Part shown: positions 1 through 30,678 of the stretch, piece after piece
How positions within the stretch are numbered: position 1 is the first letter of the stretch
Layout of the letters: every line of letters begins with the position of its first letter
Source of the DNA: Pempheris klunzingeri
Lineage: Eukaryota > Chordata > Actinopteri > Acropomatiformes > Pempheridae
Direction of reading: 5' to 3'
Assembly (NCBI RefSeq): GCF_042242105.1
Contig: NC_092022.1
Coordinates: forward strand, 11,776,001 to 11,840,000
Length of the DNA stretch: 64,000 nt
Notes under the pieces: model-generated
Told to the model about the DNA's origin: nothing
The model's database searches: none
What the model saw: the letters and a program-made list of their open reading frames with translations, nothing else
Made by a program: the position numbers and the translations under genes

Positions 1-7889
<7,889 letters not shown>

Positions 7890-8379: not shown

Positions 8380-11140
8380 AAATGCACACATCTTGTATTC
8401 CAGTCTTTACCTATACCGTATTTACCATATACGTTTCTGCTCTCCATTCCAGTGCTCTCAGATCAAATGGCCTGTCAATATTTTTCCCTACAGTTAGATG
8501 AAATGAAATAAATCCCTGCTGTGATTCACTCCGCACTGGGGCTGTACTGATTAAAACGAGGCCATAAACATAAACGTTTGAGTTTCTTTCCAAATTTTCA
8601 ACATGAAACAGAATATCGCACAGCAAGATTAAACAAAACGTGTCAATATTGCAATGCAACACATTTTATGGGTGGCACTTGTGTGTGATTAAGTTTTAAT
8701 TGCCAAGTGCATTATTGACAATATTGTGAATGTGTGTGTGCGCGTTGGGGGGGGTGGGAGTGTCAGTGTGTATGAGTGGATATAAAGAGACTGTAAGATA
8801 GTGAGGCAGTGAAGTAACAGCTGCAGTGTTTTATTTACATTAAATGTTGTACAATACATTACAGACACGTTACTGTAATTAACACTGCCATACCTCCTTA
8901 ATACTTATTTTTTTGAGAGACCCTGTCAAAGTATCATCATGTATAAACTCAGTAATCCTGACGGGCTATCTGGTATGTTGAATAGGTTGAGTAGACAATT
9001 GCTATTAAAATATCTATACTTATCTTGTGTGTGTTCTTGCATGTTGTTTTGGTGTGGTGAAGGTCAGGGCTGAATAAAGGCATGAGCGCTCAACAGTCAT
9101 AAACACACACAGACCTTGTTCAGTTTTAATTTGGAGTGGCCGCTTGGACTGACTGTGGAGAATTGGATGTATGACATGGCTGCGTGGACTTAAAGCCGAG
9201 ATCGAAGCAACAGTGGCTGACGACAGCCACCGCTTGCAACAACATGGATTTCCAATATGTCTTAAGACACTGTCTAAGACACAAACATTAATACTGCTCT
9301 ATTGATCCCAGCTTATAATACACCCAGGATCTACAAAATCCAGCGTATGTGTACATTTTAAATGTAACAATATAGTGATCAATTGGTCAAACAAACCAAA
9401 TTGGTTTAGTGTTCGATAATGCTTGACATTGTTTTGAACCAAGGTAATTCGTTGGAAAGCTCACAGGAGCAATAAATACAACCGAGAAATCTTCCATAAA
9501 TAATATTAATGCATTTCTCTGAATTTATTGATAATCCCACAATGATTTTAGGGAAGTCATGCTTTGCTCTATATTACTGAATATCATGTGTACTTACAGC
9601 ACTATGTATACTAAGTTTAATTAATCAACCTAGGGATGCCACTGATGAGTATTCTTATGATAATTTTCTCGATTTTAGCCTGTAAAATGTAAAAAACGTC
9701 AATGATAATTAACAGAGTGCAAGATGACTTCTTGAGATACCTTGTTTTAAGACATTGAGTTTAACATCATATTATGACAATGTGAAGATGCAAATACTCA
9801 CATTTCAGAGGCCGGATTTTTGGCATTTTTGTATGAAAATTTGATATTTTGATAAATCCTTTATTGCTTATGAAAATAAGCTTGTTTGTTGATGTGCTTT
9901 TAAAAAAAAAAACATATTGAAGAGGAATTCAAGAGTTTGCTATTTAACTAGCTCTTTGTCCAAAGGAAATGTTGTCTGATACATTTAGTCTTAAGGTTTA
10001 TGAATGCACTTTTCAAACACAATCGTTCCCAACAATACTTAGAGATCACCATAATGTGTGATATTAGTCAGTTGGCGAATATTTTCGCGCTGCGTATCGT
10101 TTTCTACATGGCTAATGAGACCGAATTATTCTGCATTTTCAAAATAGCCACTTTAACAGTTCCATGACCACGAACAGAGACATCATCCACGTTAAAGAGA
10201 ATGAATGTTAGATTACTGGCAAAATTGAAAGTGTGTCTAATTCGAGTAGAGAGCTGATGGCATTCTAGAGTTAAAGGATTTGGTGAATCTGTTGCTCCTG
10301 AGCGGAGAAAGAGGGATGTAGTCGCACCATGCCTGGGCTCAGCCCCCGGCTCTCTCTCCTGGCAGATTCCAGTTGAAAGTTAATTGGACGGGGAGAGGTC
10401 TGAGACAGACTGCGCTGAGGCCCATTAGTGATTCCCCTGTCGAATGCAGAGCCACGAGGATCACAGACTCACAAATAGAAGGATTAAAATAATCAATAGC
10501 CTTGACTTCCATCGACCACACACATACACACACACACACCAAGTAATTAGTAGACAACCTATTCAGCAGTGGACTATGACACCCTCCTGAACCTTACCCC
10601 GCACACATAAGCTCCACACTCCACTAAGCTGTGGTGCCTAATGAGCGGAAATAGTTGTGGCTGCTTGTGAAGAAAATGAAGGAAAGGTCAGGAAGCCACC
10701 AAACAGCCTTATACTGCTTATGTCCAAGTGTTTGGTCACCAAATAATTTCTCTGAAAATGTACAGAATGGCCACAAAAATTAATTGTAAAGTCAAATTTG
10801 TTTTGGCTGAAATTTGAGTTTGCAATGTTCCTGAACAACTGCAACAAACAGGAAAAAGCCCAAATTGTCTCACGCAGCCAATTATGGTTTAAATTGTCTC
10901 GAACACCGAAGCCTACACTCATGAGTAAATTTTTCATTTGGCTCAGAAAAACATAAGGATCAGTTCTAGATATTCCCCTTGTATTATACACTATATTTCA
11001 ACAATGAAGTGGCCCTTTTAAAATTGCAGCAGCAACACTGCCCTCTTGTGTTGAAGGAAAAACAACACATTGAGCAAAACCTAATAACAAATATTTCATC
11101 TTATTCTATTAAATCGAACAACAACCAGGTTAAGTTTTCA
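8380..11140. other. intergenic spacer between convergent c1ql4 and myl6
   Basis: AT-rich sequence between two convergent genes. It contains a G-run (8747-8756), a short CA microsatellite (10519-10539) and scattered short ORFs without recognisable similarity. I see no gene. Confidence 0.6.
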
Positions 11141-11667: not shown

Positions 11668-11696
11668 TCACCCGTTCATGACCATCCTGACCAGCT
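11668..11696 (-). CDS. myl6: myl6 alternative terminal exon, smooth-muscle type (ELVRMVMNG)
   Basis: The acceptor cttttgcag precedes 29 coding nt reading ELVRMVMNG and TGA. This corresponds to the smooth-muscle MYL6 tail, used when the cassette exon at 12768-12796 is skipped. Confidence 0.85.
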
Positions 11697-14600
11697 CTGC
11701 AAAAGATAGATGAGAAAGAGACAAATGTGAGATTCGTGGTCTAGACTTCGGCAGAGACCCCCTCCAACTACAGCATGTGGCACTAAGGCCCTGTCCTCAT
11801 CCAGCTTTGGTGGGCCTGGGTGGGAGATGCTGCATTTGGAGGCAGATCCCCCATATTCTGCTCACCCAGAGGAAACAAGGGTTAAAGGGGGTATGGAGAG
11901 AAAGAGGTGAGGTGATCATCTCTATCTCCTATTGAGCCAAAGCATTTGGCCATGTCTATAATCCAAGAAGAGCTGGTTAGAGAAGCCATCCTCGCGGTTT
12001 GCTTTCCTCTAGTTGAGAAGCAGAGAAAAGGGGAGAAGGTCGAGGGAGCTACAGTCCAGTCAAAGAGCGGCCAGCTAAAAATTCAGCTTCCATCAGTACA
12101 AAGGAGAAAATAAATCAGCACAAGAGCAAATCATTGCAACTTTGAGGTTAGTAGAAAAAGGGACTGGTCCACTCGCCCAAAGCTGGTGGCTATGCATGAA
12201 TGTAAAACAAATCTACACTGTAATGAACAAACTATATATCTATCTGTGAAAAGAGCAGCACCTCTAACCCCAACAGTGGGAAAAGCCCATTTTACTAGCA
12301 CCAATGACATGCAAATGAGATCAAAAGAGCTTCCTTGTGATCTCCACACCCATCAGCTCAAATGACTCTGCAGTGGCCACCAGGCTTTCCCTGAATGAGA
12401 CCAGTCACTTCCCCGTGTGTCCACCATATCCCCTTATAAACTTAGGGGAGTCCCAGACACATGCAGAGGGACATGCTGCAGCCAGGGGCCAAGACAGGGG
12501 GCTGCAGGAGAAAGACAGAACAGCAGGAGGCTACACATGGGTCAAAGCCTCAGGACTTCAGATGAGAGGGACCACCAGGCTTTCCCACAGGCACCTACGG
12601 GTCAAGTCTACTTTGCCACAGCACATTACTCCCGTTTGTCAATATGAAGGACGCAACTACAGTTGATTAGTGTTAGGATGGCCTAATGGGAGGGGATTAT
12701 TTAATAACTAAAATGCAGAAAAGCCTGGAGGTGCCATCTCATGGTATACCAAATGCCGTACCGGCCCTCAGCCTGACAGGATGTGGCGGACAAATGCTGT
12801 GGAGGAAGAACAGTTAACACACGGTCAGCAGTTGACATGAATACGTAATCTCTTAAAACAGTCCATTAACCACACATCTAAAGAAAACACGAAAGACAGT
12901 AAAAGGTAACAGGACACCCACCTCATCATATGACTAAATCAAGCAGTACTACAGTGACTGTCAGTAAACAGCATCAATTATTGCCTTTAAATACGGTTTA
13001 CAGCAAACTGAACATTTGCAACATTTAAAAAAAAAAGTGAAATTCATACACAAACACAATTCATGACCAAAGTTTTGTTATCACATTGCCATATATTACA
13101 CACACATATTACCTGCATAGTTTGCAGGTTTATGGCAACAGAATGGTCACACTCCATCGGCCTAATTAGAGAAAGTATTCCATCTTGGTCTCGTTTATTT
13201 CTTTCACTCTCACCTTCGTAATTGATGCAGCCATTTGCATCTTCGTGCCCCGCCAAAAGCGTCTCCACTTCCTCCTCTGTCATTTTCTCACCTGAAAATG
13301 GATCATAATAAACGTTTATTCATATTATGTGGGTGACATTACTGGGATTTTTTTGTTAATGCGATAACACAGATAAGAAAAAGAAAAATCTGGATTTTAG
13401 GAGAAAAATTTACAATGTAAGAAATAAAACAATGACAATATTACTGATAAATACATTTGCACACCAGATTATGCAAAGTTAACATGGAATACTTTGGATG
13501 AGATGTTTATTCAGTTTTCAGTTAATTAATCTTATTACTGGTACTATCCATTGTTGGGATCACAGTATTTAGCTGGAAGTAAAAACTGAAAATAAGAAGT
13601 CTATCCATCCAGATATCTATTTAAGGATGATACAAAGGTAACTTGCCTAACGTGGTGAGGACGTGACGAAGCTCTGCTCCCATTACTGTGCCGTTGCCCT
13701 CCTTGTCAAAGACACGCAGTCCCTCCACAAAATCCTCCATGGAGCCCTGATCTTTATTCTTAGCGATGGCCTGGAACATGGGCAGGAACTGCTCAAAGTC
13801 TAGCGTCTTGGTGTTCATCTCTGTAAAAAGACAAGCAAACAGAATACATGGGACATGTCTCTGAGCCTCCAGCGGCAACATTCAGTAAAACACTGCAACT
13901 GTAACATTCGAATTATTAGATAAAAGGGTTGTCTGTGTGTTTTTTTTTTACACAGCGACAGTATCGGGACTTGTGCACATGAGGCACAAATCCCACTAAG
14001 TTTAATTCTTTCCTCTCACCCTCAGCCTTGGGGTTGCCCAGGACCTTCAGCACCTCAGCGTTGACAGGGTTCTGTCCCAGGGCCCGCATAACATCCCCAC
14101 ACTGGCTGTAGCTGATCTTTCCATCCCCTGCCTTGTCAAACAGCAGGAATGCCTCCTTAAACTCTGCAGAATACACACGCACATTATGAATTAGAACAGG
14201 GATATGACTTGTTGTGGAAATTAAGAAAGAAGCAAACATGTATGGGGGAATGATATGGAGAAAGGAAGTGAGCTGGAAATAGATGAAAAAAGAAAAGGCA
14301 GACAGATTGTGAAGAAAATGAGAACAAGCAGACTAGAGAGCACAGATAATAACATGTATTTACGCTTTTACGTAGATCTGGTTTTCTGATGTTAAGGCCT
14401 AAATTTAAAGTGAGCAGGCAGAGCACACAACACCACACTGTTATACCTGCATAGTTCTCAAATGCCACTCTAGGCAAGATACCCCTAGCTGGTCTATCCA
14501 GCATAATAAAAGTATTGATAACTTGTACACCTCTATGGACAACTCTAGACCGATGTTGCACTGACAAGTTTTGTTCTAACACTTAAAACTTACACGTAAA

Positions 14601-17600
14601 CTGCAGCATACATTGTATACAGTAGTCCCTCGCTATAACGCGGTTCACCTTTCGCGGCCTCGCTGTTTCGCGGATTTTTTTAGTGCAATTTTGCATGCTT
14701 TTTTTACAGTGTATGAACGCGCATTGTGTTCTGCGTCCTGATTGGCTAAGGGACTGTAGACCAATGTCAATCAATCTCCTCCGTGCCGTGTCTCTGTACA
14801 GTACAGAATGTGTTCGGCTTGCCAAATTTACATAAATGTTCAACCGCTAGCAGTGTGACTTTTAAGTGCTGCCTGTTTGCAAGACAAACAAACAAGTCAA
14901 ACAAGAGATAAATGTGAGAAAATGTTAATGCCTGTCTGAGAAAATTGTATAAACTGTATGGTGAGGGGTTTTACAGCCTTAAAATATATATAGTAATTGT
15001 AAAAAATAAAGCTGACTACTTCGCAGATTTCGCCTATTGCGGGTTATTTTTAGAACGTAACCCCCGCAGTAAACGAGGGACCACTGTATTGTTGTTAGTC
15101 ATCTGGTCAGTGTTTTTCACCACACATCAACTGAAACAAGGTGAAACAACTTCACCAATATAACACTACATGGTTTGTCATGTTTGCTGTCGTTTGAACA
15201 TACAAACACTTATGGACTAAATTCCCAAAGTTGCCTGATTTACAGGGAAATGGGTTGCAGTGTTAAATATGTAATAGCCTACATAACACACCAGAACAGG
15301 CACATATGGATTTTACTATGTATAGTATGAATTTTTTTTTCATAAAACTGAAATTGTCCTTGGGACTCAAAGCAACATAAAAGTGGACAAAATACCAGCC
15401 AACACTTGCACCATAAACTCTTAGATTACAGTAAGTGGTCTAAATGTGACACTCATGTTGAAGTATTCTAAAAGTTGCTTTTCATCTTAACACTTACTTT
15501 GTGTTGTTATCAACAAAAAGCAATTTCACTTGATAAACAACACAAAACTAATTGTTTCAGGTATGTTACTTGAGAGGAGGCTTTAAAAACGTATTTCATA
15601 AGATTAAATAATGTGAAAGTTATCGGTTTCAGTTAAAAAGTCAATGTCAGTCGAGTGTCACCTCTAATTACTTGTCACTCGTTTGTGGTAGCAAGCAAAA
15701 GATTAATGTGTCAGTAGTTCAGTGTTTTAGTTTAACCAGCTATCTCGTCTGACAGAATGATTTCGTAGGTGACATGGAACATATTCTTTCCAAAACTTTA
15801 AAAAGCTTCATCTGACACACCTCCTCTTTGCCACCTCCACTTTAACAACAATATTTTACTGTGCTGTTGAAATGTCAATAAGGCTGTGACCTACCGGAGC
15901 CTTCTAAATCATTCACATCACCACGTATTGAGTATTTGGTTGTTGATTAAGTGGAATTACCTGGCTTTATCAAATATCAGCAGTGATGCAATCTTGTAAT
16001 TGATCTCAATGTTGATTAACGTAGCTTTGATCTATCAGGAGGCATTCTAGTTAGGCTCAACAGCAAAACAAAGAACTAGCAATTAGGGGAACATAGAGTT
16101 GGATTACACAACATCCGGGCAGTAGTCTGCTCCTAATGTTATGGGACAAGCTATTTCCCTCAAAAAGCTCAGGCACTGTTGTGGAGTTTTTCCTGTTCTG
16201 AGGAATGTGCCCCATCCCTTCTGGCCTGTGAACACTTTTCCCAACACCATATTTGGTATTAGAGGAGTGGAGGAAAGTAGGAGGAGAGTGAGAGTAGCTA
16301 CAGCCTATTATGTCAACGGTGATTAAACAAACCAGCCCCAGGACAAAAAACATCCACCACTGTATCCAGCACCAAAAAAGGGCACACTCATGAAGATGAG
16401 CCGCTTGGAAGATAACAGGCAAAGCTTATGGTAAACTGACAAAACCAGGAATGACTACAGTCTAACAGAACAAGACTTAGAAGCACAGATATCAGCCTTG
16501 CTTGGGCTAAGTTGGCTTTATAAGTACCACTAATGCATGACTGACTGACGAACATACAAAAACACTGCAACAGAAGGTCAAAGCTGGTAAGTATTATAAC
16601 GTTATATGCAAAGTATTACTGATTTTGACGTACCAAACAACAGTGCAAGGCGACTCTCATTCACATTAAAAACAAATTTGGTTTGTCCAAAACCAACATG
16701 CAGATCACACCCTAAACACTCCGAGATAGCCATCAGTTTTTGAGCTAAGGCGGTCCCCTTTCACTGACTTACCATGAATTTGATCCAGGTTAAATTCAAT
16801 CTGAAAAGAACAAGCAGTTGCAAGTGGAGAGTGATGAAACTGTACGGAAATAGAGAAGGAAAGCCTAGCCGAATACCACGACTACTATGACAGGCGGGCA
16901 TAGAGCAGGGTGATAGGAGAGATACAGGGCAAAGTGTCATCTCAACCAAGAAAGAATGAAAGCATGCAAACCAAGCGAGATCTGGAAAATGTCACAATAC
17001 AAAATCAAAACTCACCAAGGATTTGATCTTCCGAGAAGTCAGACTGTTTAGAGAGAAATTAGGCTACATGAAAATTGTTCCCTTTGCAGCGCAGTGCAAA
17101 GCTAGCTTGGGTTAACTTCAAAAGGCTTTTTAACATATAATTCAGACAGTTAGGTATACTACAACCGCATGTCCCCTAACTGTAGCACATTAAGGAATGA
17201 TTAATATACACGCACGTACTTTAGTGACATTAATTAGTGTATTGTGAGATTGTTAATTTCATCGACCGTGCAAGCTAACGTTAGCTTCTTAAAAGTTGCA
17301 CTTCCGCTAGCGGCCAGCGAGCCAATTCAGACATTCAAACTCAACTTAACGTCTCTGCAAGGCTGAACCATTTCCTTTAAACAAGAAGCTAGTCACATAA
17401 AACGCAATGATTATGCTAGTAGAGTCGAGTGGAACAATAAAAAAACCCACCATGGCTGTGTTGGCTGAGGTGTGTCCGAGACGTCGGAAAACCAAAGAAT
17501 GTGTGACGGCTCGCGGAGAAGGGCAGGGTGAGAAAACCCTAGCAGCGGTGCGTCATGACGTAAGCACGCACGCTAACACGCAGGACGTGCTGGCAGCAGG

Positions 17601-20241
17601 GTGAGCTGCACAGCCACACTCCATATATAGAAATACAGACCAGGCATGGTTTGTGATTTACAATACACGGAATATATGCCTTTAAAGTCCTTACACTATT
17701 AATTTTATAACTGAAGTGACAGGTACATTGAATAAATAACTTATTTAGAGCTGAATTTAATCCTCTACACACCAAAGGTAAGAAGGCCTAGGTCACCTAT
17801 TCTGATCAGCCTTGTTGAAAAACCTTATTTTGTGTCTTAGAACATGTTTGGAGGGGCTCTTTGATAAAAAGTTAGATTAGTCAGTCTGCCCTTAACCTTG
17901 CAAAGTAAGTAATCAGCAAGTCAATGGGCCCAGCAGCTGTCAGACTCCACAACCAGCACTGCTCCCAGTAATATTTTTATTCAGAACATCACTCTATGCA
18001 ATGTATTTATTTAGATCAACCTCACTCTATGTGCAATAGTTTTTATATTCCCCTCTGTGTACAGTGTCCCAATTTTATACTTAATTTTGTACATACTTAC
18101 ATATACATACTGTATATATTATGTGTATATCTCTGCCCATTCGTTTATTATTACTTATTGCTTTATTGAATGTCCTACTTTTGCTGTACTTTTACTTTTG
18201 CTTTTCACTTGCTGCTGTAACACTGTGAATTTCCCCGCCGTTGGACCAATAAAGGAATATCTTATCTTATCTTTGTCAAATGTGTGTTCTTATTAAGATA
18301 TGATTTTTAAGTTGTTTCAAAGGATGTTTGTCCCATTTTGGCACGTGTTTGACTTTGCTGATCTTGACCTCACTTGGGTAAATTAATGCATGGTTGCAGT
18401 GAATGAGTTTGCCAGGCTTTGCATTAAGGATGTGAGTGTCTGGCCGGGCAGGAATGATGGATTACTTTAGGCCTGTGAGATCATGGACCGATGCCACATC
18501 TCTTAACAGCCTGGCTAAAACTCTGTCTTCGCCCAGCAGGAGCTCTGACCTCCTGTCATGTCTGTGGTTCCACTGTGAGCAGAAGCGTGTGTCTTAACAT
18601 GGCCCACATATCATCTCAGGCTAAATGGGACAGTCTCACTCCATAAAATCATGCAGTATACATAGTGTAACACTTAAAGCGCATGAGGATGGCAGCAAAG
18701 CTAAAGCATAAACAAAGCAAAAGTGAATTGAAACAAAGTCTAATGTAGGCATTAGTATAGTTTTAGTTAATACTGACTTTCTTCATCTTCAGATTAAAAT
18801 GTTTCATCTGATCGACATAGGCTCGCCTTTGATCTGAGAATAGTACAATGGTCTGGACATATGTAATGTTAACATGTTTTCACTGCACAAGGTAGCTACT
18901 TAGTTAACTATTGTCTACATTTACTGATATTTAATTCACTAATTAAATAGATGAACTGATTTATACTTCCAGGTTGAAGAAATTGGACTGAAAATGTAAA
19001 TGGCCATAATCATTTATTCCAAAATCCAGCAGCATTATTGATTCTTTTTAACATACATATGAAGAAAGGGTCCCTCAAATTTTTATATCTAAGAGTTGTA
19101 ACAAATACATTTATTGAACACAAGCACAAATCTGAATGGACTGCACCAAAATCTACTTAGCTGCTCCACTTTGACGTTGATGCAGAGCTTCGTTAACAAG
19201 GGAGTACAGAATTAGCCGCTGGACAAACTATGAAATAATTACGCAGTATCTAAATAACCTCCTGCTGTTTGCTCACCGTCTTTTTTCCTTACACATTATA
19301 TTCAGTATGAGGTAAGCAGCCAATATTTGCCACTACAGAGACATAGGCTACTGTAATATATTATATACCAGTGATGACCAATAAACAGCTTGCCTCAAGC
19401 TGGTCAGGGTCTATATGTGACTTTTTCTCACAAGCTGCCATCTAAGTAACAGCACAGAAGTATGGGGAGGCCTGTTCTCTTTGCAGCCAGTTTTGAAAAA
19501 TGGGTCACGTAAAACCTCTTTTTGAATTTTTAATGTAGTTAAAAATAACAATTTCCTCACTTTGAATTTTGAATTAGAGTTGGAGCCTTGTTGTTTTTTG
19601 GAATAATCATGGTTGTATAGGTCTAAAAGAGGAGGCTATACATTCGTGTGACCTTCCTGATGAAAAAAAAATAGAACATACTGTGGCAGGAAACAGCCTT
19701 TTTCTCCCTAAGGAGGGCACTGACTGACTGACGGCCTCACTTTCAGTGTCCCACTTCTTCACTTAGCTTAGCTTCACTTCACTTGACTCCAGTGTAATCC
19801 CAGTTTGATTCTGGCAGCTCTGACTTTCTTTTTTTAGCATCAGAATCATAGAAATAATAAGCATGTGATGGTTTTACAGAACTAATTGACTTCTGACAAA
19901 TATTTACTATTGTATTATATTTACTATATCTCCAGCTGAGATTTACTGTCCTGGCTAAGATTACTAAACACTATACGTGACGTGAGATTTCTAAATATAG
20001 TCCTGATTTATGAATGCCCCACATTAACTTTGTCATGAAAGCATATTGTAGTTTCTCCACTTACCTCCAAAGTACTGGGGTCGAACGGTGAATCTGATGG
20101 ACGTAGCATCCTTGGTTTCTGCTCGGGAGCTGGCTTTGGAGCTGCAGGAGCTGCAGGGAGGCAGGGGTAAGGAGGACCCAGTCTGGGTTGGGTCACTGGT
20201 GAAGGAGACTTCTTAATGGAGGGTTCTCTTTTCGGAGCCAT
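11668..20241 (-). CDS. myl6: myosin essential light chain gene, MYL6 plus MYL6B-like products
   Basis: On the minus strand nine coding segments can be joined in phase. The short form is ATG at 17453-17451, 17043-17016, 14163-14020, 13820-13647, 13291-13214 and one 29-nt terminal exon. It gives 151 aa starting [16 protein letters not shown], the MYL6 length. The long form is 20241-20065 (59 aa, Lys/Pro/Ala-rich), then 16800-16773 in place of the 17 kb exon, then the same common exons. It gives 209 aa, close to human MYL6B (208). EF-hand family motifs include [40 protein letters not shown] and [12 protein letters not shown]. Essential light chains bind the myosin heavy-chain lever arm and do not bind calcium strongly. 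The C-terminus is AFVRHILSG (non-muscle) or ELVRMVMNG (smooth muscle). The exon order equals that of MYL1 (LC1f/LC3f). Exon lengths of 28, 144, 174, 78 and 29 nt fit the family. Isoform pairing is inferred from phase and homology. Confidence 0.92.
12768..12796 (-). CDS. myl6: myl6 alternative terminal exon, non-muscle type (AFVRHILSG)
   Basis: The acceptor tccacag precedes 29 coding nt reading AFVRHILSG and TGA, identical to the non-muscle MYL6 C-terminus. Possible downstream donors (gtacgg, gtatac) lie within 20 nt of the stop, so it can act as a cassette exon spliced to the 11.7 kb exon. Confidence 0.85.
13214..13291 (-). CDS. myl6: myl6 common exon (last EF-hand)
   Basis: This exon is 78 nt, encoding [20 protein letters not shown] and then CINYE, with the donor gtgagag after one base. 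It joins in phase to either terminal exon. Confidence 0.92.
13647..13820 (-). CDS. myl6: myl6 common exon (central EF-hands)
   Basis: This exon is 174 nt. The acceptor ctttttacag precedes [20 protein letters not shown] and the exon ends RHVLTTLG. The donor is gcaagt (a GC-AG intron) rather than GT; the next exon resumes with the second and third bases of Gly. Confidence 0.92.
14020..14163 (-). CDS. myl6: myl6 common exon (first EF-hand)
   Basis: This exon is 144 nt. The acceptor gtattctgcag precedes [18 protein letters not shown] and the exon runs to GNPKAE, with the donor gtgagagg after one base of the next codon. [17 protein letters not shown] is a strongly conserved essential light-chain block. 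Confidence 0.93.
14620..15086. mobile_element. pogo/Tigger-like MITE (467 bp) inside a myl6 intron
   Basis: The left end is CAGTAGTCCCTCGC at 14620 and the right end is the inverse of CAGTGGTCCCTCG ending at 15086. Both sides carry TA (14618-14619 and 15087-15088), consistent with a TA target duplication. Terminal Tc/mariner-pogo style repeats and an internal CGCGG-rich segment match the widespread 'CAGTGGTCCCTCG' family. No transposase is encoded. Confidence 0.75.
15090..16770 (-). other. myl6 intron, remainder
   Basis: AT-rich intronic sequence between the MITE and the 28-nt exon. The overlapping short ORFs on both strands (16.05-16.57 kb) show no family features. Confidence 0.6.
16773..16800 (-). 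CDS. myl6: myl6 28-nt exon for long form (IEFNLDQIH)
   Basis: The acceptor cttttcag precedes 28 nt encoding IEFNLDQIH plus one base, then the donor gtaag. It corresponds to the I-E-F-x-x-D-Q segment of MYL6B. It is the same size and phase as the exon at 17016-17043, so including both would shift the frame (56 nt), implying mutually exclusive use. Confidence 0.82.
17016..17043 (-). CDS. myl6: myl6 28-nt exon for short form (SDFSEDQIL)
   Basis: The acceptor ctctctaaacag precedes 28 nt encoding SDFSEDQIL plus one base of the next codon, then the donor gtgag. It joins in frame to EFKEAF of the first common exon. It is one of two equal-sized alternative exons. Confidence 0.85.
17451..17453 (-). 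CDS. myl6: myl6 short-form first exon (initiator Met only)
   Basis: The minus strand reads ACAGCC ATG immediately followed by the donor gtgggt. As in mammalian MYL6, the first exon contributes only the initiator Met, and the next exon (17016-17043) begins S-D-F. The 5'UTR extends upstream towards about 17600; its start is not visible. Confidence 0.8.
17540..17625 (-). promoter_or_regulatory. candidate internal promoter for short myl6 form
   Basis: About 160 nt upstream of the short-form ATG, the minus strand reads CTATATATGG (17612-17621), which can be read as a TATA box or a one-mismatch CArG box (SRF site), typical of smooth-muscle genes. A CRE-like TGACGTAA (17556-17563, plus strand) lies closer to the start. 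No transcription start is seen directly. Confidence 0.4.
17950..18274 (+). repeat. non-LTR retrotransposon 3' tail
   Basis: The segment ends ...CACTGTGAATTTCCCC, CCAATAAAGGAATATC, then TCTTATCTTATC. This is the common teleost LINE 3' end with short tandem tail repeats. It lies in the first intron of the long myl6 form. The family (L2/Rex-like) is not certain. Confidence 0.6.
18275..20064 (-). other. myl6 long-form intron, remainder
   Basis: AT-rich intronic sequence with no further exon or clear repeat that I can support. Confidence 0.6.
20065..20241 (-). CDS. myl6: myl6 long-form first exon (MYL6B-like N-terminal extension)
   Basis: This exon has 59 codons beginning [11 protein letters not shown] and ending DPSTLE, followed by the donor gtaagt. 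The Lys-rich start and Pro/Ala-rich body ([18 protein letters not shown]) resemble the actin-contacting extension of long (A1-type) essential light chains and MYL6B. Splicing in phase 0 to the 16773-16800 exon gives ...[14 protein letters not shown]. Confidence 0.85.
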
Positions 20242-20244
20242 TCC

Positions 20245-20950
20245 TAACGCCCTGGAGAGCCAAAAGTTAGCGTCAAAATTTTTTCACCAGCTGCTGCTAA
20301 GGCTGCTGAGAGGAGGTATCGAGCTATGAAGTAAAGTGTGTCAGTTGTGTGTATCCTGTGCAAGGGGTGGAGGGGATGGGGGTGGGGGCAGGTGATGATG
20401 GCAATGATGATGCTCAGGGAATGGCAGAAGGATGAAGCAGAGGTGGATGTATTCAAAAGCATGTGAGTGGATTTGTGAAGCAAAGTGTAGGAGGTGTAGA
20501 GATGAAAGCTTGAGTTTAATATAAAGAGGGGGACAGATATAGAAAACACCAGGTTCTGCTGTATGACTCCAAGCACATGCTTTTATTTAGGTCAGAAATG
20601 TGTGCGGGTGAGCGAAGCAGGAATGTGAAGGGTTTCTGTGTCAAGCTCAATACACAGACATCATCTTACGTTTGTGAAGAGGCGTTATAAAGGGTATCAT
20701 GAATACTGTGTCTCATTGATAACTTATCATGCAGCTAATAATAGATTGTTCTAGAATAAATATGTTCTCGGTGTCTCTGATCCCAAAATGCTCGCTCCCT
20801 CCTGTTTCCTGCAGAGTTGCTGACACTGATGCTACATGCCCAGAAATAGAGAGATAGGACACGAGGTATGAAAACAAATTTAGACTCCAGAACATGTTTT
20901 CTTCTGTGAAGGTTAAAGATGGATTCATACAAAATATATTGCCTAAACAG
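20245..20950. other. upstream region of myl6 long form
   Basis: This region should hold the long-form 5'UTR and promoter, but I see no decisive TATA or CpG block. A G-rich run (20369-20390) and short ORFs are present. Confidence 0.4.
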
Positions 20951-20959
20951 TGTCATATA

Positions 20960-22300
20960 TACTGTATATACTGCTACTTCTCGTTCTCTATGAAGGATCG
21001 CATATGGAATTATATAGTAAACAAAAAACAGAACATGTTTTGTTTCAGATTCTTCAAAGTAGCCACCTTTTTCTTTGCTGACAGCTTTGGACGCTCTTCG
21101 CTTTCTCTCAATCAGCTTCACAAGGTCGTTGCCTGGAATGGTTTTCCAAATGTCTTGAAGGAGTTCCCAGAGGTGCTGAGCACTTGTTGGCTGCTTTTCC
21201 TTCACTCTGCGGTCCAGCTCATCCCAAACCATCTCAGTTGGATTTAGGTCGGGTGATTGTGGAGGCAAGGTCATGTGATGCAGCACTCCATCACGCTCAT
21301 TCTTGCGCAAATAGCCCCTACACAGCCTGGAGGTGTGTTTGGGGTCATTGTCCTGTTGAAAAACAAATGATGGTCACACTAAGTTCAAACCAGATGAGAT
21401 GGCATGTTTGCTGCAGGACGCTGTGGCAGTCATGCTGGTTTAGTGTGCCTTGAAATTTCACGGTGGGACCCACACATGTGGAAACCATCCGCTTACCTTT
21501 TCTCTGTCTCGCAAAGACATGCCAGGTGAAACCAAAAATCTCAAATTTGGACCTATCAGGCCAAAGTACAGATTTCCACTGGTCTAACGTCCATCCCTTG
21601 TGTTTCTTGGCCCAAACAGTTCTCTTCCTCTTGTTCTTCCTCAGTGCTTCTTTGCAGCAATTTGACCATGAAGGCCTGATTCACGCAGTCTCCTCTGAAC
21701 AGTTGATGTTAAGATGTGTCTGCTGCTTGAACTCTGTGACGCATGTATGTGGCTCTAATATGAGGTTGTTAATTTGTGGATTCTGAGGCTGGTGACTCTA
21801 ATCAACTTCTCCTCTGCAGCAGAAGGAACTCTTGGTCTTCCTTTCCTGGGGTAATCCTCATGAGATCTAGTTTCATCATAGCATTTGATGGTTTTCGTCA
21901 CTGCACTTGAGGATACATTCAAAGTTCTTCAAATTATCCGGATTGACTGACCTCCATGTCTTAAAGTAATGATGTTGTTTCTCTTCACATAGTTGAGTAG
22001 TTCTTGCTGTAATATGGATTAGAACAGTAGTTGACAAGCGCTATTCACTGTATAGAATTGTGTACCAACCCTACCTTTGCACAACACAAATTATATTTTC
22101 AAATGCATTCAGAACGCAAGAAATGACACAAAGTAACTTTTAACAAGGCACACACCCATTCAGGTGACTACCTCCTGAATGTGACTGAGAGAATACCAAG
22201 AGCGTGCAAAGCTGGCATCGAAGCAAAAGGCGGCTACTTTGATGAATCTAAAATATAAAACGTATTCTGGTTTGCCAACACTTTTTCAAGAGATTCTTGT
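20960..22300 (-). mobile_element. decayed Tc1-like transposon with long inverted repeats
   Basis: The minus strand carries transposase remains. The best block (about 21030-21310) reads LPPQSPDLNPTEMVWDELDR and ends KGGYFEESE, the DPDLNP-type C-terminal catalytic and tail segment of Tc1 transposases. Upstream (about 21300-22030) further Tc1-like segments (AKKHKGW, QWKSVLWPD) occur in shifted frames with stops. Sequence at 21045-21160 is repeated inverted at about 22145-22250 (shared AGATTC-TCAAAGTAGCC and AGCTTTG-ACGCTCTT), marking long terminal inverted repeats. Element ends are approximate. Confidence 0.75.
20985..22030 (-). pseudogene. Tc1-like transposase pseudogene
   Basis: From about 22020 down to 21030 the minus strand encodes recognisable Tc1 transposase pieces, but frame changes and stop codons break the protein. 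Only the last third is open. It is inactive as it stands. Confidence 0.7.
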
Positions 22301-28654: not shown

Positions 28655-29598
28655 GTGAGTCCACAAATCTGTTCGTTATTAGTCCAACATAAAGAAAAAT
28701 ATCCTAAATAGTTCTTTTTAGTGAATTAAATTTGAACTAAATTCAGAAAATGCACACATAGGAGCACTTGTGTTTAACTTCTAAACTTTTACTTTATAAA
28801 ATTACAGTCAGTCAATCTCAATGAAAATCTTATATCTATAGAGTTCTTGTAATTATGTTATATTATATAATCCAGACATAATTGCGTGGCTAAAGTTTGA
28901 ATTAATAAATTATAGTAACCTGTCCCACTTTTACGCATTAGTGCACAATAATTAACTGGGACAGTTTACAAAAACAATAGCAACATTCTTTGCCCGAGGA
29001 CTGCCCTTCAGTTTTCTAACTAATAATAATTATAACAGTAAAAGTAATAATATTTATAATAAGGCTTTAATTTATTTTAAAGTTCGGGCTATCTATTCGG
29101 TGAGGTGTACAGATTTATTTTTAGAGAAATAACGTCATAAGCAGTTTGTGGACGGCTTGTCCACATGTGTGCTGAGTTGTATGTTGCCTATTTAATCTTT
29201 GAGCTTTATATGCTGAGTAAATCCTGTTCTGTCCCAGATTGACAGCATCTCTGTAGCGACCACAGCATAACAGCAGGGGATTTTTCAGCTACCAAACTCT
29301 AAAAAACAGCCATCTATTCCTAATATCAGAATATCACAGTAAGACGTTTTAAATAGTCAGTTGTTGGACACTGAGTGAGCTGTCCACACTGCAGTGCTGA
29401 AATGAGAGCACTCACTCTGTATTTCATGAGATATGAGTAGCCCATCACTATATCTCGGGAATTACTTTAGTCCCCATTCCTAATCAATCACAATACAACA
29501 TTCTATACACTTTAGGGAGTAACATCATGCATTTACAGATAAGTTAAGGTTGTATCTGTTGATTGACAGTTTTTCCTGCTGTGTTTCTCCAGATCAAA

Positions 29599-30678
29599 AT
29601 GATGCCTAAACCTTTTGGAAAGAGTGGGGATGTGAGCGAGCTGGTGAGCTCCCTCGGCTGGCTTGAGGAAGACGGCAGCTCTCAGGATGGCGATGCAAGC
29701 CCAGAGATGAGGGGTCGCCATGGCCTGACTGCAGGGGGCCGAATCCAGTCCTGCACAGAACTGGGCAGTGAGGATATTGAGGAGGAAGAGGAGGAGGAGG
29801 ATGAGGATGAGATGGGACCAAATGGAGAAAACGCTCCCAAGAGAAGAGGCCCTAAGAAGAAGAAGATGACCAAAGCTAGACAGGAGAGGTTTCGTGCCCG
29901 GCGAGTCAAGGCCAACGCCAGAGAACGTTCACGAATGCACGGGCTGAACGATGCCCTGGAAAATCTGCGCAGAGTGATGCCCTGCTACTCCAAGACACAG
30001 AAGCTGTCAAAGATTGAGACTCTACGGCTGGCCCACAACTACATCTGGGCTCTGTCAGAGGTGCTCGAGAGTGGCCAGTCACCAGAAAGCCATGGCTTTA
30101 TGGAGATGCTGTGTAAAGGCCTGTCTCAGCCCACCAGCAACCTTGTGGCCGGCTGCTTGCAGCTGGGCACCAGTTCGATGATGCTCAACAAGCTGGATGA
30201 CAAGTGTGGAGGCCCAGGAGTGGGTGGTGTGGGGGGTCAGGTTGGCCATCCCCTCAGCTACCCATCTCCAGGTCTTCCCAGCCCCCCGTATGGCTCCCTG
30301 GAGGCGTCTCACCTCCTCCACATGAAGGGATTCAAGGGGCCTGTATACGACAACCCCTCCCCTAACGAGTGCAGCAGCGGCACCCCACCATACGATGGGC
30401 CCCTCACTCCTCCCCTGAGCATCAGTGGCAACTTTGCCCTGAAGCAGGAGCCTTCTCCCCATGAGGCAGAGAGGAACTACACACCCCAGCCTGGCCACCA
30501 TGGCCACTACCTCTCGTCACACCATTACGCCGCTTCCACGACTGGCAGCCTACCAGTGGGGCCTCAGGGCCACCCACTTTTTCAGGCTTCACGCTATGAT
30601 CTGCCCCTGGATGTGGCCTTCGACTCCTTCACTCCCTCTCACCTCGTCACCCCTCACTCTCAGATGAGTGGCATCTGA
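29599..30678 (+). CDS. neurod4: neurogenic differentiation factor 4 (bHLH, 359 aa)
   Basis: A single coding exon with two successive ATG codons (29599, 29602) seven bases after the acceptor tttctccag; the in-frame upstream ATG at 29563 is intronic. An acidic stretch (residues 61-71, Glu/Asp-rich) is followed by the nuclear basic run [20 protein letters not shown]. The bHLH domain (about 102-156) contains the basic region [15 protein letters not shown] and helix 2 [20 protein letters not shown]. The Neuro_bHLH part follows with [20 protein letters not shown]. Later blocks PGLPSPPYG and [13 protein letters not shown] are NEUROD4/NeuroM signatures. It heterodimerises with E proteins, binds CANNTG sites and drives neuronal differentiation. 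It is slightly longer than human NEUROD4, mainly through extra residues in the N-terminal acidic and C-terminal parts. Confidence 0.96.

Follow-up and report, generated by a model that had tools for sequence, protein, structure and literature searches.

Introduction

The first four exons of MYL1 lie in the order 1, 2, 3, 4 and are joined as 1+4 and 2+3, and splice-compatibility work on MYL1 reports that this pairing is set by splice preference. In human, MYL6B and MYL6 are two adjacent genes, and MYL6 has an alternative last exon that gives rise to smooth and non-muscle C-termini. Human 1sa/3nm was reportedly the subject of work by Hailstones and Gunning in 1990. Here, an essential-light-chain gene of the fish Pempheris klunzingeri is described that is predicted to encode both a long, MYL6B-type and a short, MYL6-type chain. 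The gene lies in a stretch of 64,000 nucleotides (nt) of contig NC_092022.1 (assembly GCF_042242105.1, positions 11,776,001 to 11,840,000 of the forward strand), hereafter called the window, on the contig referred to as C11 below. Positions given without a contig name are those of the window.

The closest described systems each share part of this organization. MYL1 of birds and mammals (MLC1f/MLC3f) resembles the window gene in that two alkali light chains come from one locus with two promoters, which are putative in the window gene; unlike MYL1, the window gene is closest to MYL6 in sequence, has an alternative last exon and has one CpG-enriched start region. Human MYL6B and MYL6 (12q13.2) are the counterparts of the long and the short predicted product, respectively; human has two genes for these kinds of chain, and the window has one. 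The teleost LC1 and LC3 genes belong to the same family and are separate genes in the present genome, on C10 and C24. Published work already assigns LC1 and LC3 to different loci in teleosts and to one gene in mammals (PMC10039937); this teleost arrangement is the reverse of that of the window gene. For MYL1, a single locus with two promoters and alternative splicing into two isoforms has been described (PMC2841079). Statements attributed to cited papers refer throughout to the portions of those papers that were covered. By its exon order, the window gene belongs to this known two-promoter light-chain plan, and its interest lies in a reciprocal pattern between two members of the family. No description of a dual-promoter myl6 was found in the open-access literature, judged mostly by title and the start of the abstract and with most subscription papers outside this scope; public annotations may already list both isoforms.

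Results

One gene with nested alternative first exons

Location of the exons and translation of their joins gave a single essential-light-chain gene on the minus strand, from 20241 to 11668. Exons 1a and 1b are alternative first exons of 59 codons and of a Met codon only, respectively. The coding part of exon 1a (20065..20241, minus strand, as all exons below) encodes the N-terminal extension of the long form, which ends in FDPSTLE. Its frame is open up to a consensus donor (GAG/gtaagt, phase 0), and an in-frame stop lies 45 nt upstream of its ATG. The coding part of exon 1b, for the short form, is the Met codon at 17451..17453, followed by its donor (ATG/gtgggt) and in phase 0 with exon 2b. 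Two exons of 28 nt with AG/GT borders come next: exon 2b of the short form (17016..17043; SDFSEDQIL plus 1 nt) and exon 2a of the long form (16773..16800; IEFNLDQIH plus 1 nt), which are identical at 16 of 28 positions. The common exons are exon 3 (14020..14163, 144 nt), exon 4 (13647..13820, 174 nt), which is followed by an intron with a GC donor (gcaagt), and exon 5 (13214..13291, 78 nt). The coding sequence ends in either of two alternative last exons, both intact and in phase. Exon 6 (12768..12796) encodes ...AFVRHILSG, the same C-terminus as that of the MYL6 chain 9z3w in the PDB; exon 7 (11668..11696) encodes ...ELVRMVMNG, would be used if exon 6 is skipped and resembles the C-terminus ELVRMVLSG of the smooth-muscle chain 6xe9.

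The join 1a+2a gives 209 amino acids (aa) and the join 1b+2b gives 151 aa, each with either C-terminus, making four possible proteins. An earlier note on this DNA had proposed the two first exons, the two 28-nt exons, the common exons and their junctions; all of them were present with usable splice borders and matching phase, and translation of the joins reproduced both lengths. The note had further equated these lengths with those of human MYL6B and MYL6, which needs a small correction, since 209 aa exceeds human MYL6B (208 aa) by one. The two alternative last exons are a feature beyond the reasons that it had given.

The motifs used for a chance control were defined post hoc, with the exons already seen. 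Under these definitions, 17 segments of 28 nt bordered by YAG...GYRAG were present on both strands of the window, and the light-chain motif occurred in exons 2b and 2a only. A first exon of the type M.PK[KR], open to a phase-0 donor, occurred once in the window, at 20241. Sixty mononucleotide shuffles of the window, which preserve base content but not dinucleotides, yielded neither a light-chain 28-nt exon nor an M.PK[KR] first exon (0 for each). The gene model is sound.

The order of the exons is nested, 1a-1b-2b-2a, ahead of the common exons and the two alternative last exons. This arrangement of long-1, short-1 (Met only), short-2, long-2 and common exons is that of MYL1, so the MYL1-like architecture proposed by the earlier note was borne out as far as exon order goes. 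Because the nested order is shared with MYL1, the plan most simply predates the split between MYL1 and MYL6. The same order bears on the suggestion that fish merged two genes, by which the middle of an ancestral MYL6B-then-MYL6 tandem was deleted. In human, the two genes share one orientation, with MYL6B upstream, and a deletion could in principle fuse genes so placed. However, a simple deletion would leave 1a-2a-1b-2b, whereas the order observed is the plan of the paralogue MYL1 and would require an extra rearrangement. Fusion by simple deletion was rejected on these grounds, and a fused tandem is scarcely credible as the origin of the locus.

Frame constraints and putative promoters

Inclusion of both 28-nt exons led to truncation at 69 or 11 aa, and skipping of both to truncation at 97 or 39 aa. 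One 28-nt exon, and no more than one, thus has to be included, because double inclusion or double skipping shifts the frame. The cross joins 1a+2b and 1b+2a remain open (209 and 151 aa), so the correct pairing has to come from splice-site preference, as the case of MYL1 would suggest.

The observed/expected ratio of CpG within 300 nt of the ATG was 0.92 for exon 1b versus 0.34 for exon 1a, against 0.34 for the window. A CpG-enriched stretch at exon 1b (17000..17599) is a putative broadly used promoter; in bins of 400 nt the ratio was 0.78 and 1.11 for those starting at 17000 and 17200, and 0.33 and 0.23 for those at exon 1a. Since G+C was as low as 0.39-0.47 across the stretch (0.43 at exon 1b) and the ratio fell to 0.07 in the upstream bin 17600-17999, the region of exon 1b is not a classical CpG island. 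The contrast between the two starts may reflect a broad internal promoter at exon 1b versus a restricted upstream promoter at exon 1a. Matches to promoter motifs (E-boxes, a CArG-like site at 17621-17630 and a MEF2-like site at 20735-20744) had no chance comparison and were given no weight.

From the CpG-poor upstream promoter, RNA would start at exon 1a. As a first exon, 1b has no acceptor and would be skipped, and 1a would be joined to 2a to give the 209-aa MYL6B-type chain. The N-terminal extension of this chain would be expected to touch actin, because the extension of the MYL1 A1 chain binds actin (PMC10777021). From the internal CpG-enriched promoter, RNA would start at exon 1b, which would be joined to 2b to give the 151-aa MYL6-type chain, and inclusion or skipping of exon 6 would provide the two C-termini. 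Promoter use, splice pairing and protein function, together with the timing of the duplications, are parts of the best explanation that we infer.

Immediately upstream of exon 1a (20735-21680), and again in the flank (L044 1514-2497), are remains that resemble a Tc1/mariner transposase, recognized by eye only.

Identity of the predicted products

The best PDB match of the short form was the MYL6 chain 9z3w (E 5.5e-84), and EF-hand Pfam families were above their cut-off in the product of the window gene. With MYL6 as the closest among the solved light chains, the product is by sequence a MYL6-type essential light chain. The long form aligned to the MYL6B chain 1oe9 from exon 2a onward (IEFN.DQ); this PDB chain comes without the extension, so exon 1a was not alignable to MYL6B itself. 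Similar extensions are found elsewhere among the light chains of the genome, with MAPKK starts on C10, C17, C15, C19 and C7, and the tail of exon 1a, FDPxx(I/L)x followed across the junction by (I/L)E, also occurs in the light chains on C17 and C19. The window gene is not a long-only MYL6B ortholog, as it also carries intact exons 1b and 2b.

An apparently short-only sister copy on C2

The second myl6-type copy, on C2, has exon 1b (Met only), exon 2b (SDFTEDQIM), exons 3, 4 and 5, and an intact exon 7 (ELVRMVMSG). A scan for 28-nt exons over about 20 kilobases (kb) upstream from exon 3 recovered exon 2b and found no exon 2a. A looser scan found no exon 1a in 50 kb of C2, and as a control it recovered exon 1a in all four genes known to have one (the window gene and those on C10, C17 and C15). 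The last coding exon of tsfm (mitochondrial EF-Ts) lies about 1 kb upstream of exon 1b of this copy. The C2 copy therefore appears to be short-only, through loss of the long exons.

If the C2 copy manages without exons 1a and 2a, as it appears to do, these exons could also be silent relics in the window gene, the locus making only the short MYL6-type chain. Such relics would hardly be expected to keep the frame, the start, both splice borders, the phase and the joint between FDPSTLE and IEF intact all together, as is observed, and 1a and 2a survive in the window although the sister copy suggests that their complete loss is tolerated. We regard silent relics as improbable.

The duplication that gave rise to the C11 and C2 copies is apparently old, with a nonsynonymous divergence (dN) of about 0.046 and a synonymous divergence (dS) of about 0.96 to 1.01 in the common exons. 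Because one collinear non-coding block is also shared, we infer that it was the teleost whole-genome duplication. This block (10352..10507 in the window; C2:10232215-10232373, L034:2215-2373) has the same orientation in both places and matches at 126 of 159 aligned positions, with 49 of 52 identical at its end. It lies 1.2 kb 3′ of the window myl6 and about 2.5 kb 5′ of the start of a SMARCC2-type gene on C2, and is possibly a retained enhancer or a repeat.

The SMARCC2-type gene adjoins the C2 copy tail to tail, on the side opposite tsfm. One stretch of it matched SMARCC2 (E 8e-50), another passed the Pfam cut-off for SWIRM-assoc_2, and two other SWIRM-associated matches were below their cut-offs. 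We take SMARCC2 to be the tail-to-tail neighbour of MYL6 in human, a location that the C2 copy shares.

Three further observations concern the two copies and their surroundings. Exon 6 of the C2 copy (C2:10248984-10249006) is two codons short, with AFVRCIM followed by a stop, and is perhaps a decaying alternative last exon. GC-AG introns occur at different positions in the two copies, at 13646 in the window (intron 4) and at about 10250222 on C2 (intron 3). A neuronal basic helix-loop-helix (bHLH) gene in one open frame lies at 29563-30678 on the plus strand of the window; it has HLH and Neuro_bHLH domains, its nearest solved chain is NeuroD1, and it is probably neurod4.

Light-chain loci in the rest of the genome

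One whole-genome search (646 Mb, 439 contigs) was made with the 141 common residues as query; the best 30 matches from 57 candidates were listed, so that counts can be lower bounds. Nineteen of the 30 fell in at least eight light-chain loci, on C11 (the window gene), C2, C10, C24, C15, C17, C19 and C7, and the other 11, at no more than 57% identity, were taken for other EF-hand genes. Among the matches listed, the myl6-type loci were only those on C11 and C2, and no separate long-type myl6b was found, which is the check that the earlier note had recommended. Searches for relatives outside the genome gave 25 pattern matches in viral contigs and 67 in genome contigs, with none confirmed in either set.

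At myl1, the two forms were found apart. Each of two genes was found with one 28-nt exon; the first exon is long on C10 (MAPKKDPKAPAKK...VDLSAVK) and Met-only on C24, where no long first exon was found in the 30 kb examined, about 15.8 kb of which lie upstream. In the tree described below, these two genes grouped together at 100/99 and joined the MYL1 chains 6ysy and 7qio at 83/88. By their exons, myl1 is split into a long-only gene (C10) and a short-only gene (C24). The pattern in this fish is the reverse of that in mammals, where MYL1 stays dual and MYL6B and MYL6 are split. The shark A1 and A2 chains have near-identical coding sequences and identical 3′ untranslated regions (PMC10039937) and are likely to come from one gene. 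Two findings go beyond the earlier note: a sister copy that has seemingly lost the long half, and the reversal at myl1.

Among the other loci, cardiac-type essential light chains with intact MAPKK extensions, of 202 and 197 aa, were seen at L035:5116-5721 (C19, minus strand) and L036:5303-5893 (C7, plus strand). Each of these genes is one uninterrupted frame, and they are probably old retrogenes kept in use. A myl4/myl3-like gene at L041 about 5140-5457 (C17, minus strand) seems to hold an extra intron within its equivalent of exon 4.

Phylogenetic placement

In a tree of 13 proteins and 134 columns, the window gene paired with the C2 copy (88/86), outside the MYL1 and cardiac groups, and MYL6, MYL6B and 6xe9 were placed together (85/83). 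In the approximately unbiased test (p-AU), grouping of the window gene with MYL6B alone was rejected (p-AU 0.019), as was grouping of the C2 copy with the two tetrapod MYL6 chains (p-AU 0.018). These results favour, but do not prove, a tandem split on the tetrapod line. A 2007 phylogeny of human HOX-linked families places MYL1, MYL4 and MYL6 in one vertebrate group, and MYL6B is absent from the portion of that paper covered (PMC2235844). Reptiles have a gene named myl6b, which appears among the muscle genes of a lizard study (PMC4139331).

MYL6B and MYL6 might instead have been separate before fish and tetrapods split, fish having lost MYL6B and kept a myl6 with both promoters. Such a history agrees with a tree that groups both fish copies with MYL6 and leaves MYL6B outside, which was not rejected (p-AU 0.10), and with a review in which MYL6B has orthologs in corals (PMC11203038), possibly a matter of naming only; the best tree, on the other hand, joins MYL6B with tetrapod MYL6. 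An early separation is considered unlikely.

Discussion

The window gene is best explained as one of the two myl6-type copies found in this genome and as one that keeps the ancestral two-promoter plan, to which a probability of roughly three in four is given. The earlier note had raised an ancestral two-promoter form; the nested order and the absence of a separate myl6b among the listed matches speak for it, and it is held back by the modest tree, in which the alternative at p-AU 0.10 stands. A gene of this kind was probably duplicated in tandem in tetrapods and split into MYL6B (long) and MYL6 (short).

Several points count against the retention of an ancestral plan at this locus. The comparison draws on one fish genome, and the long form with its 1a-2a pairing is predicted from sequence. 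The 9-residue exon-2 peptides discriminate poorly, that of 2a agreeing at 6/9 positions with both MYL6B and the C17 chain, and that of 2b at 5/9 with MYL6, C10, C24 and C17 alike; their similarity was dropped, as too weak, as proof of long/short homology. The placement of the C11 locus depends on sequence, on the nearby neurod-type gene and on the one shared non-coding block. No smarcc2 was found at the window locus, either in the lists of open reading frames or by blastn of the window plus 20 kb below it against the 40-kb stretch of C2 that holds smarcc2. Tree supports are modest. The fish pair meets the tetrapod MYL6/MYL6B group and the MYL1 group at a fork with support below 80, which was drawn open; a grouping of fish with tetrapod MYL6 to the exclusion of MYL1 is thus not part of the tree. 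The favoured topology could also be imitated by gene conversion between the neighbouring genes MYL6B and MYL6. A late origin of MYL6B would be at odds with its reported coral orthologs unless these share only the name; a name-based annotation is suspected.

Together with the split myl1, an ancestral two-promoter plan would fit a mirror-image partition, in which an essential-light-chain gene with two nested promoters was already present when the early vertebrate duplications took place, and in which the descendant that was split differs between the lineages. We consider this history reasonably likely. On the mammalian side, MYL1 would have stayed dual and a tandem duplication would have divided MYL6 into MYL6B and MYL6. 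In this fish, one myl6 copy would have stayed dual and the other become short-only, and myl1 would have been divided into an LC1 and an LC3 gene.

The locus suggests that the human pair split from an older two-in-one gene. If confirmed, it would be a direct sequence case for the descent of MYL6B and MYL6 from a single gene with two promoters, and it would add a natural replicate (MYL1 versus MYL6, fish versus mammals) of duplicates dividing alternative promoters between them. Fish annotations that have myl6 and lack myl6b may in that case miss the long isoform rather than the function. If the mirror-image partition is true, the loss of one promoter per copy would be a repeated fate in this gene family.

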